DNA of 37,414 bases, taken from contig WFTQ01000030.1 in NCBI GenBank assembly GCA_015485355.1, forward strand, positions 1 through 37,414, in the 5' to 3' direction. This stretch comes from a bacterium (GTDB taxonomy: Bacteria; Calditrichota; Calditrichia; RBG-13-44-9; J042). The position numbers were made by a program, and so were the translations under genes. Shown here in pieces: positions 9,147 to 32,460 of this stretch. A model generated the notes under the pieces. That model saw nothing but the letters and a program-made list of their open reading frames with translations, had not been told where the DNA came from and ran no database searches. Each line of letters starts with the position of its first letter. Within the stretch, counting starts at the first letter, position 1.

Positions 9147-11381
9147 ATGCCGAATAAATCCTATTCATCACTCAATTTACTACTGGACAGCGTTGAAGGC
9201 ACCAACCTCTTGCTGGAGTACTACGCGGCCTTCAGCCGCCGGCTCTTTTCCGCCAAAGACTTCAAATCCATCATGAACATCCTCTACGAAGAGCTCAAAA
9301 AGATTTACATTCACCAGCATATCGAAATCATCTTCACCCACACAAACCATCGTCTGGTAAAGTTTGTGTACGATAGTTCTTCACACCAGGTAGTCCCCGC
9401 AGACGAACTTTACGACCATACCACGCTGTACAGCCATGTACTGGAAAAACAACAAATCCTTTTGACCAACAATTATGCGGCCTTTTGCGAGAACTTGAAT
9501 CTGAACACCGCCGATGTAACGGCCAGCTCCTGGTTGGGTATCCCTCTGGTAGTAAGGGGCAAGGTACTGGGGGCTCTGGTGATCTGGGACGACAACCCCG
9601 AACGCTTTTTGCGGGTGCAGGACAAACAATTCCTGTCCACCATTTGCAACATGGTCAGTTTTGCCATCGAAAACATTTATCTATACGACTACATCACCGA
9701 GAAAAACGGATCTTATAAACTGTTTGAAACCATTTTGCCCAAAGGGGCCGCCCGCAATTCGACGAAAAGCGTTATTGCGCATTTAATGAAAAACGTCCTG
9801 GAAGCCGAGACAGCCCGATATACCGGTTTGTTTTTGACCAACCGGTTTTATACCCGCTGGCGTACCGTGGAGGAGTGTTATCATTCTCCGGAATTTGCCA
9901 ATTTAGCACTTGAACTATTAAAAGATCTGCCCAAAGTGCCCCAATCGGTTTTCGAGGGGAATGAGTACTTCTTCTGGCATGATCAGTTCGTTTCCCATCC
10001 TTTTTCTCCGGCTTTGAAAGACGCCCTGTCGGCGGTTCCGGTGAACTCCGCCGTGGTATTTCCCTTTCAAATGAATTATTCTTACCAGGGCCTTTGGATC
10101 ATTGCATTTCAGCGGCGGATGGAACAATTGAAACAGGAAGAATTGCAATTCTATCGGTTCATTTTTTATATCATCACCCAGCTATTGGAGAAGAAGACAT
10201 TGCTGGAAAAGAAGGCCCGTTACGAGACCTACATGAAACATCTGGAACGCATGAAGATTATGGGAGAATTGGCCAGCGGCGCGGCCCATCATTTGAATAA
10301 TATCCTGAGCGTTATCATCGGTAAAACTCACATGCTGAAAAAGAAGCTTCAGAACAGCCCTTTTGCCCGCGATCTGGAGCTCGTTTACCAGGCGGCCAAT
10401 GATGGGGCGGCCGGCATTCGTCGTATACAGAGCGCCGTGGCGCAAAATCCCCAAAAACTTCAAAAAAAGGCGGTCAATATCAATCACCTGATTCAGGAAG
10501 TGGTGGAGATCGCCCGTCCCCGCTTCGAACGGGAGGCGCAGTCCCTGGGCATTCGTTATGATCTGAAGCTGAACTTTGGACGCATCAAGCCGGTATTGGG
10601 AGACGCTGGAGCCCTGAGGGAGGTTTTTCTCAATTTATTGAATAACGCATTGGATGCCATGCCCCGGGGCGGCAAAGTGGTGATCCAGACCTCTCTGAAA
10701 AAGAACCAGGTGTTGGTTTTCATTAGCGACACCGGCGTCGGAATTCCCGAAGACCTCCGGGAGAAAATATTTGAACCTTTCTTTACCACGAAAGGCGAAA
10801 AAGGCAACGGTCTGGGATTGAGCATCGCCGCCGATATCATTCAACGGCACCAGGGGAAGATTTATGTGGACTCCATCCCCAAAAGGGGTTCCATCTTCAT
10901 GATAGAATTGCCGGTGGTGTCCGGGCGATTGGAAATTATCCGCAGCAACGACTCCCTGGAAGCCATGACCCACTGCCGTATTCTGCTGGTGGATGATGAA
11001 GGCATTGTGCGGGAAACCCTGGCCGAAATGCTGGAAGAAGAAGGCTTCGAAGTGGTAACCGCTTCGAATGCCGACGAAGCCCTTTTGAAATTTCGTAAAT
11101 ATCAATGCGATGTGATTTTCACCGATTTAAGCATGCCCGGAATGAACGGCATTCAATTGGCGCGACAACTGAAAAAAAGTGTTCCCAACATTCCGGTATT
11201 CATCATTACCGGATGGAATCAACTGGATAAACAATTGATCGAATCGAACCGATTCGTCGATGGCATCATCCAAAAGCCATTCAATATCGCCAAAATCCGG
11301 CGGGAACTGCATCGGGTACTAAACAGTACCGGTGCTTCCAACCAGAACCATCCCGGTGAATTTCTTCCCCGGAGCCAATAG
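9147..11381 (+). CDS. GAF-domain hybrid sensor histidine kinase
   Basis: A 744-residue cytoplasmic hybrid kinase. Residues about 20-180 form a GAF domain and 190-350 a weaker GAF-like second sensor, joined by a helical linker to HisKA. H381 in GAAHHLNN is the likely phosphorylated histidine. The HATPase part has NALDAMP, DTGVGIP and the NGLGLS lid motif. A C-terminal receiver (610-725) has D616/D617, D660 as phospho-acceptor and K710. No output domain or separate regulator is nearby. It starts six bases after the carbonic anhydrase stop, so a small-molecule or CO2/bicarbonate-linked signal is conceivable, but that is only inferred from position. The ligand cannot be read from the sequence. 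Confidence 0.92.
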   Translation: MPNKSYSSLNLLLDSVEGTNLLLEYYAAFSRRLFSAKDFKSIMNILYEELKKIYIHQHIEIIFTHTNHRLVKFVYDSSSHQVVPADELYDHTTLYSHVLEKQQILLTNNYAAFCENLNLNTADVTASSWLGIPLVVRGKVLGALVIWDDNPERFLRVQDKQFLSTICNMVSFAIENIYLYDYITEKNGSYKLFETILPKGAARNSTKSVIAHLMKNVLEAETARYTGLFLTNRFYTRWRTVEECYHSPEFANLALELLKDLPKVPQSVFEGNEYFFWHDQFVSHPFSPALKDALSAVPVNSAVVFPFQMNYSYQGLWIIAFQRRMEQLKQEELQFYRFIFYIITQLLEKKTLLEKKARYETYMKHLERMKIMGELASGAAHHLNNILSVIIGKTHMLKKKLQNSPFARDLELVYQAANDGAAGIRRIQSAVAQNPQKLQKKAVNINHLIQEVVEIARPRFEREAQSLGIRYDLKLNFGRIKPVLGDAGALREVFLNLLNNALDAMPRGGKVVIQTSLKKNQVLVFISDTGVGIPEDLREKIFEPFFTTKGEKGNGLGLSIAADIIQRHQGKIYVDSIPKRGSIFMIELPVVSGRLEIIRSNDSLEAMTHCRILLVDDEGIVRETLAEMLEEEGFEVVTASNADEALLKFRKYQCDVIFTDLSMPGMNGIQLARQLKKSVPNIPVFIITGWNQLDKQLIESNRFVDGIIQKPFNIAKIRRELHRVLNSTGASNQNHPGEFLPRSQ

Positions 11382-30590: not shown

Positions 30591-31327
30591 GGCTTCAATT
30601 TCCGTATGCTGTTTTCTTTCACATTGGCCAGGGCCAGATGGGTGATACCCTTCTGATACAACTCTTTAGCCAGGGCCAAGGCCCGATTTTCCAGGGGAGT
30701 GGTTTCCACATCAGTAAACAGAAACAGGATCGGCCAGGAGGCTTTAAAAAGCTTTCCCAGACCTCGAGATTCATCCAGTAAATACTGCAGAAAGGTCTCC
30801 TGAGTAAACGTTTGATCGAAATCACGGGAAAAACGTTTAAAATCTTCCGCGGTCTGGACGGTCAATTGCGAATCTATGAGACGAATCTCCATGCAAAAGA
30901 TAAATTGATCCCAGATACGGGTTCGCGCCCATGTTTTCGCCAAGCGGGCGTCCACTATGGGTTTTTCCTGAGAACCACCCAGCTCTATCAGCAAATAATC
31001 GGCCGGACAGTGCCGTTGAATTTCCTGCAATTCTTTGAGATTAAAACCGACCAACATGGCATCCATCAACCCCTTGCCGGCATCGACAACGGATTCCTGT
31101 TCGAAGGTCCGGGTCACCTGGTTCAACAGCACAGGGATATCCTGCCCCACGACAATGGCACCGGCCACCGGCAGTTTGATGGAATCCAGTCCCGTGATCA
31201 ACACCTTTTTCCCCCGGCGAGAAAGTTCCTCGGCCAGCTTGCGGATCAGATATTTCCGACCCTTGCCGCCAGCAAAGGCGAACGTCCGAAATCGGGGATC
31301 AAGCACCAGCGCTTCTTGCCAGATCAT
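30587..31327 (-). CDS. Diverged YqeC-family protein with degenerate P-loop
   Basis: A 246-residue protein resembling YqeC, a P-loop accessory protein of selenium-dependent molybdenum hydroxylases. The first strand and loop read FAFAGGKGRKYLIRKLAEEL, where family members have GAGGKTS/T, so the Walker A threonine/serine is missing. The second signature reads LLIELGGSQEKPIVDAR in place of the usual LVEADG(S/A)xGxPLK. The ATG at 31327 overlaps the PIN gene stop (ATGA) and has GGGAGG upstream; a start at 31345 is less likely. Its stop overlaps the YqeB-like start. Nucleotide binding is doubtful. The family call rests on overall pattern and gene pairing with YqeB. Confidence 0.7.
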   Translation of the reverse strand: MIWQEALVLDPRFRTFAFAGGKGRKYLIRKLAEELSRRGKKVLITGLDSIKLPVAGAIVVGQDIPVLLNQVTRTFEQESVVDAGKGLMDAMLVGFNLKELQEIQRHCPADYLLIELGGSQEKPIVDARLAKTWARTRIWDQFIFCMEIRLIDSQLTVQTAEDFKRFSRDFDQTFTQETFLQYLLDESRGLGKLFKASWPILFLFTDVETTPLENRALALAKELYQKGITHLALANVKENSIRKLKP

Positions 31328-31758
31328 TCCGAAGTTCCCTCCCATTCTGGTATCGTGCGAAAACCAATTTGAGTAAATTCCACTTTCTGGGTTAAAATGG
31401 TATGGATCCGCCGACGGTCCATGAAAACGGCATGGGCAAAGTCATACAGTCCCAGGGACAACTCCTGATAGCGGCGCATCCAGCGCAAGGCCTCCTTTTG
31501 GGCCCGCCGCCCAACCCACAAGATGCGTATATGATTGACCAGATAAGCTTCTTCGATAATTTCATAAAATTTCAGACTTTTCTCCACCCCGACCCGCTCC
31601 TTCAATTCGCCGATAGCCAGACCCATCGCCACGTTGCTGGTAAACAATTTCGTACCGTTTTGCAATGCCTCACTGAAATGGCGGCGGAATGCCGCATGAT
31701 GTTCATGCCCTCGATCTAATATGGCGATCCAGGCACTCTCGTCGATAAATAATCGCAT
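31324..31758 (-). CDS. PIN-domain protein with incomplete active site
   Basis: A 144-residue VapC-like PIN protein. PIN domains are Mg-dependent RNases with four acidic residues. D6 (FIDESAW) and D106 (SLGLYDFAHAVFM) are present, but the second-position glutamate aligns with L47 (SNVAMGLAIGELKERVG) and the last aspartate with K125 (TQKVEFTQIGF). Nearby E51, E54 or E127 might stand in. It follows an AbrB-type protein by 18 bases, the usual order of an antitoxin-toxin pair, and its stop overlaps the YqeC-like start. It may be a weakened or non-catalytic PIN used for RNA binding or regulation. The fold is clear; loss of activity is inferred from a hand alignment. Confidence 0.82.
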   Translation of the reverse strand: MRLFIDESAWIAILDRGHEHHAAFRRHFSEALQNGTKLFTSNVAMGLAIGELKERVGVEKSLKFYEIIEEAYLVNHIRILWVGRRAQKEALRWMRRYQELSLGLYDFAHAVFMDRRRIHTILTQKVEFTQIGFRTIPEWEGTSE

Positions 31759-31776
31759 AGGCTCGATCCGTCCCGA

Positions 31777-31974
31777 TTATTGTTCGTCTATAAGTTTCCA
31801 CAGTTGATGCAACGGATTCTGAAGCAGTAGGGCCTCCAATCGGCTGGATTTGATTTTCTTGATGGAAACCTCGACCTTATCGCCCGGTTGGAGCTTCAAT
31901 TTTTCCCGCAACTCCACCGGTATGTGAATTTGATACTGTTCATTCAACTCGGCAATGTAGGTTCCTACTTTCAT
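31777..31974 (-). CDS. SpoVT/AbrB-family antitoxin-like DNA-binding protein
   Basis: A 65-residue swapped-hairpin AbrB protein. The core reads QIHIPVELREKLKLQPGDKVEVSI, the standard AbrB DNA-binding motif, and the C-terminal tail (ALLLQNPLHQLWKLIDEQ) is the kind that wraps a PIN partner. It would bind its own promoter and, with the adjacent PIN protein, form a toxin-antitoxin-like pair. GAGGTG lies a few bases before the ATG, with a promoter at 31997-32025. It is the first gene of the cluster running through PIN, YqeC-like, YqeB-like and symporter genes. Confidence 0.88.
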   Translation of the reverse strand: MKVGTYIAELNEQYQIHIPVELREKLKLQPGDKVEVSIKKIKSSRLEALLLQNPLHQLWKLIDEQ

Positions 31975-32220: not shown

Positions 32221-32361
32221 CGACAGGTGAGTGTCTGGAATCCCATCACCCCGGGACAAGGCAACACCCGTGAAGGCAAGTAATTTTCGTATTTTCAACA
32301 AATTCGGATCGCAAAACAGTCCAGGCACGATATTTGTTGATTTACGCTGCGGGACAAATTG

Positions 32362-32433
32362 GGGAACGTTGCTCCGGGGACGTGGGACATCCCTTTTAAT
32401 AAAAAGCCTCCTTTGGGTTAGAGCAACGTTCCC
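32362..32433 (+). repeat. 13-bp perfect inverted repeat with 46-base loop before the HDOD-GGDEF gene
   Basis: GGGAACGTTGCTC (32362-32374) and GAGCAACGTTCCC (32421-32433) are exact complements. The loop contains smaller complementary runs (GGGACATCCC and CCCTTTT with AAAAAG). The 3' arm is followed by TTGCTTTTTATT, so on the plus strand it resembles an attenuator placed 27 bases before the ATG at 32461. It could instead be a palindromic REP/MITE-like element. Only one copy was noticed here. Confidence 0.6.
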
Positions 32434-32460
32434 TTGCTTTTTATTCAGGAACATGAAAGC

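Follow-up and report, generated by a model that had tools for sequence, protein, structure and literature searches.

In bacterial leader attenuators, a promoter is followed by a hairpin with a U-tract and then by the gene, and GEMM-I and GEMM-II are c-di-GMP riboswitches. Small RNAs that depend on sigma54 are represented by Qrr and CrcZ, as described in the available parts of PMC10162802 and PMC4063720, respectively. For CsrA, the accessible text of PMC7652899 gives the consensus RUACARGGAUGU with an ANGGAN hexaloop and usually paired sites. CsrA-decoy RNAs outside Gammaproteobacteria were predictions only, as far as the accessible portion of PMC4333381 (2014) goes, and the riboswitches named for Caldithrix in the available excerpt of PMC5317091 are B12, TPP and Moco. 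In the open-licence literature, we found no small RNA from Calditrichota and no report matching the element described below (topics such as CsrA sponges and 3' UTRs, or small RNAs, cyclases and termination, included). Searches there for HDOD and GGDEF together with sigma54, and for sigma54 leader attenuation or terminators, returned only unrelated titles.

The window, that is, the whole stretch of 37,414 nucleotides that was analysed, carries an inverted repeat just upstream of a gene whose product contains an HDOD domain (E = 1.4e-25) and a GGDEF domain (E = 2.6e-38). The initial annotation had described a 13-bp exact stem with a 46-base loop, a T-rich run behind it and the start of a diguanylate cyclase 27 bases further on, and each of these was confirmed at the positions given in Table 1. 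The two arms of 13 nt are 100% complementary (13/13 bp) with 46 nt between them, and a G-U pair (32361/32434) extends the stem to 14 pairs. A pair of genes for a MazE-like antitoxin and a PIN-domain protein (31324-31974, - strand) is divergent from the cyclase gene.

Table 1. Features of the promoter-hairpin unit and the gene downstream, in window coordinates
Feature	Position	Strand	Remark
Sigma54-type -24/-12 motif, GGCAC-N5-TTGT	32324..32337	+	24 bp upstream of the hairpin
P1 stem (outer RNA hairpin)	arms 32362-32374 / 32421-32433	+	encloses two small hairpins
P2 inner hairpin, GGGGACGUGGGACAUCCCU, loop GGG	32376..32394	+	predicted fold in own genome
P3 inner hairpin, AGCCU-CCUUU-GGGUU	32405..32419	+	predicted fold
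U-rich tract, terminator-like, TTGCTTTTTATT	32434..32445	+	abuts the stem
Likely Shine-Dalgarno AGGA	32447..32450	+	10 nt before the ATG; inferred from sequence
HDOD-GGDEF gene, 512 aa	32461..33999	+	domain matches

By itself, the repeat is weak evidence. It was the single instance in the window of an exact pair with arms of at least 13 and a loop of at most 100, and it is only mildly unusual, because such a pair turned up in 4 of 60 first-order Markov sequences as well. Its folding energy on the + strand was modest as well (z -1.93 and -2.30 in two runs). When the 86 bases around the repeat were used as a query, the window copy was the sole match at E<=0.001 in the own genome (3.44 Mb), the remaining eight matches at E<=10 being scraps of 14-22 nt. 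Among 60 genomes, matches at E<=0.001 were confined to three: the own genome, G001 from the same genus (E = 5.4e-25) and G003 from another genus of the same family (5.7e-16). Its location is shared as well: in both relatives the orthologous HDOD-GGDEF gene follows the element, and because of this conservation we regard the hairpin as certain. The element is identical to that of G001 at 68 of 72 aligned bases and to that of G003 at 64 of 70 (91%), whereas the flanks (100-300 bases) of the own genome and G003 agreed at 69-74%, which is the level of shuffled sequence (controls: mean 71%, maximum 88%), and the two HDOD-GGDEF proteins are only 32% identical. Therefore, the element is under strong selection of its own. 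It had no match in plasmids or phages. A viral origin was considered and rejected: a 17-base core pattern matched seven viral stretches, all without the stem, which we took as chance.

Upstream of the hairpin stands a sigma54-type -24/-12 motif. The GG and the G(C/T) of its two halves are 10 bp apart, and its -12 element is GT, not GC. If the usual sigma54 spacing, about 12 nt beyond the -12 element, is assumed, transcription would start near 32349, about 12 nt before the hairpin, so that the RNA would be almost wholly hairpin. RpoN (PF04552) is encoded in all seven genomes queried. Matches to the HDOD-GGDEF protein at E<=1e-40 were obtained in eight of 60 genomes, own included, and six of these eight orthologues (own, G001, G003, G005, G009 and G011) are preceded by GGCAY-N5-TTGT, a hairpin and a T-rich tail; in the other two (G012 and G014), the 250 bases searched contained no such motif and no stem of at least 8 pairs. 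The neighbours further upstream differ among these loci: divergent mazE/PIN genes in the own genome and G001, an amine oxidase gene in G003, and cysS in a second family formed by G005, G009 and G011. The promoter-hairpin unit is therefore not the tail of one particular upstream gene.

A seventh copy, in G007, stands between cysS, again upstream as in the second family, and an ECF sigma factor gene, with the first possible start about 180 nt on. Its sigma54-type site is GGCACAATTTTTGT; downstream comes the hairpin GAGAGCGUUGC...GCAACGCUCUC with UUUUUUU, the stem ending in CTCTCTTTTTTT, a perfect T7 tail. No HDOD-GGDEF orthologue was detected at E<=1e-40 in this genome, a draft of about 540 contigs that is 95% complete. 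The occurrence of motif and hairpin without a detected cyclase gene thus argues for a terminated transcript of their own.

Across the own genome, a stricter form of the motif, GGCAYNNNNTTTGT, occurred 38 times against 12 times for its backwards control, and one of these sites precedes an ORF that resembles Hsp20 by eye. A stem of at least 8 pairs with a T-rich tail followed at four of the 30 sites examined out of the 38, namely the window site, L153 (inside a 553-codon frame), L157 and L165. At L157 (C70:37409), a 14-pair hairpin with CCTTTTATG lies 38 nt beyond the sigma54-type site and no ORF of 100 aa starts within 400 nt, which makes this locus a possible second sigma54-driven small RNA. 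A pattern that combined a sigma54 site with an AGNGTTG stem yielded four matches in 40 genomes and none in the backwards control; the match at L107 was judged on reading to be chance. Since this pattern misses both the AACGTTG stem of the window and the longer loop of G007, it says little about how frequent the arrangement is.

The hairpin has the form of an intrinsic terminator, a G+C-rich stem (13 pairs) and then a U-tract, with an imperfect tail in the own genome. T-rich tails follow the stem in all six leaders (TGCTTTTTATTC in the own genome, CTTTTTTATTCG in G001, ATTTTTAATTTT in G003, TTTTTTAGGGAT in G009, TTTTTTATAACC in G005 and CTATTTTATAAC in G011), and G007 has T7. A consensus terminator scan accepts loops of 3-8 only and is blind to the window hairpin. 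A terminator is expected directly after tRNA genes. Short AGGGAA../..UUCCCUUUUUU hairpins, which resemble the outer stem and make up most of the weak covariance-model matches across the phylum, were found directly 3' of tRNA-Leu (L130) and tRNA-Asp (L134) in relatives; as they were chosen by likeness to the model, they show occurrence at terminator sites, not frequency. Against the terminator reading count the interruption of the own tail, the loop, which is long for a terminator, and the conservation of this loop in the own genome, G001 and G003, which goes far beyond what termination needs.

The locus had initially been proposed to be an attenuator, an RNA switch or a REP-like element. Of these, the attenuator best fits the succession of motif, hairpin, U-tract and gene, while the REP-like option had to be given up. 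With moderate confidence, we read the element from its sequence as encoding, within the HDOD-GGDEF leader, a putative short RNA that would be driven by sigma54, end in an intrinsic terminator and act as an attenuator, a small RNA or both. RNA polymerase with sigma54, switched on by an activator, would start about 12 nt ahead of the hairpin and make a leader of about 95 nt; the P1 hairpin and the U-tract would then serve as intrinsic terminator, and most of the leader would be released as a small RNA. The HDOD-GGDEF mRNA would be made by read-through, making the hairpin a brake on cyclase production and presumably on c-di-GMP. A further role in trans is possible for the released RNA, and the P2/P3 payload, which occurs within one family, presumably binds a factor that either sets read-through or is captured by the RNA.

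The same hairpin could instead be a plain structural leader, which shields the 5' end of the mRNA or frees the ribosome site without real termination. Such a role would suit the onset of the hairpin about 1-16 nt past the inferred start in seven genomes, as well as the imperfect U-tracts of the own genome and G003. Nevertheless, the G007 copy combines a perfect T7 tail with no detected cyclase gene to protect, and we consider this alternative unlikely.

P1, P2 and P3 form a predicted three-way junction that is conserved in the own genome, G001 and G003. In these sequences 91.7% of the cells of P2 (A4) and 100% of those of P3 are paired, and GGGACGUGGGACA (loop, P2) and CCUCCUUUGGGUU (loop, P3) are invariant in all three. 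The CCUCCUUU of P3 probably matches the anti-Shine-Dalgarno end of 16S rRNA. In the own genome and in G001, the loop segment GGGGACGT (32376-32383) could pair with the P1 3' arm ACGTTCCC (32426-32433) instead of the 5' arm. No antiterminator conserved in all three genomes was found; one candidate, in which AATAAAAAGC of the loop would pair with GCTTTTTATT of the tail, does not extend to G003. In a ligand-sensing riboswitch, P1 with a P2/P3 aptamer for c-di-GMP or another metabolite would alter how the cyclase mRNA is terminated or translated. The predicted junction, the segments that stay invariant despite the divergence of the own and G003 proteins, and the position within a leader whose stem resembles a terminator are all consistent with this. 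On the other hand, the Rfam covariance models matched nothing at E<=5 within an 801-base stretch holding the element, nor the elements of G001 and G003, strong model matches were limited to 3 of 40 phylum genomes, none of 26 pairs changed on both sides among the own genome, G001 and G003, and the second family has plain hairpins. A riboswitch thus seems quite unlikely.

The second family helps to judge whether the stem acts as RNA. In G005, G009 and G011, a hairpin with the stem GAGAGCGUU or GGGAGCGUU and a T-rich tail occupies the same position; the stem and the promoter motif are kept, and plain hairpins without the P2/P3 loop fold strongly (z -5.1 to -7.1). When P1 was compared over seven genomes (own, G001, G003, G005, G009, G011 and G007), standard pairing held at pairs 1-8 in all seven, at pairs 9 and 10 in six and at pair 11 in five. 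Pair 2 is G-C, A-U or G-U and pair 5 is A-U or G-C, and both are compensated between the families, probably by one event each. Thus the paired base changes by which the initial annotation had proposed to recognise a regulatory RNA exist in the outer stem between families, but not among the three closest genomes. The compensated pairs support an RNA stem, though each may be a single event. The structure of the second family was no better than shuffles (258/500). As for the strand, 76 of 78 cells pair on the + strand versus 69 of 78 on the - strand in the own genome, G001 and G003, and G-U cells number 8 versus 1. These counts make the + strand the more likely functional RNA, although they come from three sequences and the energy z-score favours the - strand (-3.65 versus -1.93).

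Model R1 also led to hairpins of the form GGGAAUGUUGC...GCAACAUUCCC with a U-tract directly 3' of a hybrid histidine kinase gene. These were present at all six close orthologous loci (own C65, G001, G002 in shortened form, G003, G005 and G009), and a seventh, more distant kinase homologue (L082 in G007, 40% identical over the tail) had no hairpin by eye. The own kinase hairpin lies at L075:1377-1465 on the - strand (C65, about 10855-10940), and its two CACAGGGAUGU sites match the CsrA consensus. With R2, a covariance model of the six kinase-locus hairpins, the family could be extended to G012, G014 and G011 (E 2e-12 to 4e-9) and, less strongly, to G006 (9e-4); the G012 member follows an M64 peptidase gene and the G014 member an acyl-CoA dehydrogenase gene. 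Two or more ANGGA sites, typically CACAGGGAUGUG, are found on the gene strand in nine of the ten elements, of which only the first six are independent evidence for ANGGA, because the motif is built into the model that brought up the other four. Sites of the CACAGGGAUGUG type fit both RUACARGGAUGU and the ANGGAN hexaloop, and CsrA is encoded in 36 of 40 phylum genomes, with two copies in the own genome. We regard the kinase 3'-end hairpins as a candidate CsrA-decoy family. At L121:541-630 in G013, a + strand ORF and a - strand ORF, the latter resembling thiI by eye, flank a GAGGGAUGUUGC hairpin whose loop contains CCUCCUCUUU.

R2 recovered the window element on either strand, with per-genome E values of 6.3e-5 (+) and 3.7e-5 (-); in the alignment for G001, the + strand match involves the stem alone. 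Because a near-palindromic stem can be matched in either direction, R1 picked up R2 elements and vice versa, on both strands. On the + strand, ANGGA is absent from the elements of the window, G001, G005, G009 and G011 and occurs once each in G003 and G007; hence the window element was not filed as a CsrA RNA. A pairing of the leader segment ACAUCCCUGU with the CsrA-type sites, exact in G001, was not kept in G003 and was rejected. In a CsrA-binding + strand leader, CsrA would grip GGA motifs in P2 and repress the cyclase. Such control of cyclases by CsrA/Rsm proteins has been published for other systems, according to the available parts of PMC6849547 and PMC8406273. The presence of CsrA in the own genome and the phylum and the stem GGGAAYGUUGC, which the window element shares with the CsrA-type-site hairpins, point in the same direction, but with + strand ANGGA in only 2 of 7 elements and an R2 match by stem only, we find this explanation distinctly improbable.

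The antisense strand of 32353-32434 resembles CsrA-site RNA more than the sense strand does. A functional - strand, acting as an antisense CsrA decoy, would fit the slightly higher R2 bits on - than on + in all three genomes (38.5/37.6, 36.1/30.7 and 33.5/32.7) and the presence of CCAAAGGAGG on the - strand in all three (complement of 32353-32434), with a perfect ACAGGGAUGU in G001. However, a - strand U-tract exists in G003 and in neither the own genome nor G001, the G-U cells favour the + strand, and the GGA of the second site is lost in G003, which leaves this possibility very improbable. A mobile palindrome of the REP/MITE kind, expected to show dispersed copies with variable neighbours, has its palindromic form and nothing else in its favour and can be dismissed as having next to no probability, given one copy in the own genome and relatives that carry the element at the same orthologous site.

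If the preferred reading, a sigma54-driven short RNA with its own terminator, is true, it would add a regulatory RNA from a phylum where the literature searched showed no such RNA, and would give a c-di-GMP enzyme both a sigma54 switch and a transcription brake upstream. Trans action could be tested directly on the G007 copy, which has no detected cyclase gene. The hairpins with CsrA sites would provide a candidate family of CsrA decoys outside Gammaproteobacteria. Only tentatively do we suggest that both sets are "loaded terminators" of Calditrichota. One set, at the 3' ends of kinase and other genes, may titrate CsrA with paired sites; the window set may be fired by sigma54 and carry another conserved payload; both might thereby tie CsrA and c-di-GMP signalling together by one RNA architecture that is not in Rfam.

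Compared with the described systems, the window element shares a sigma54-type promoter motif and a putative short transcript with Qrr and CrcZ, whereas its predicted RNA would form part of the leader region of a cyclase gene. With intrinsic-terminator attenuators it shares the order of promoter motif, hairpin with U-tract and gene, but it has a long payload loop and no conserved antiterminator was found. The c-di-GMP riboswitches GEMM-I and GEMM-II are likewise linked to a c-di-GMP gene; unlike them, the element has no Rfam match at E<=5. As for the CsrA decoys (CsrB/RsmY and the proposed TwoAYGGAY, RF01731, and Bacillaceae-1, RF01690), the related Calditrichota hairpins, which share P1, carry paired ANGGA as well; by contrast, the window element is without ANGGA on the + strand, and Rfam matches neither hairpin set.
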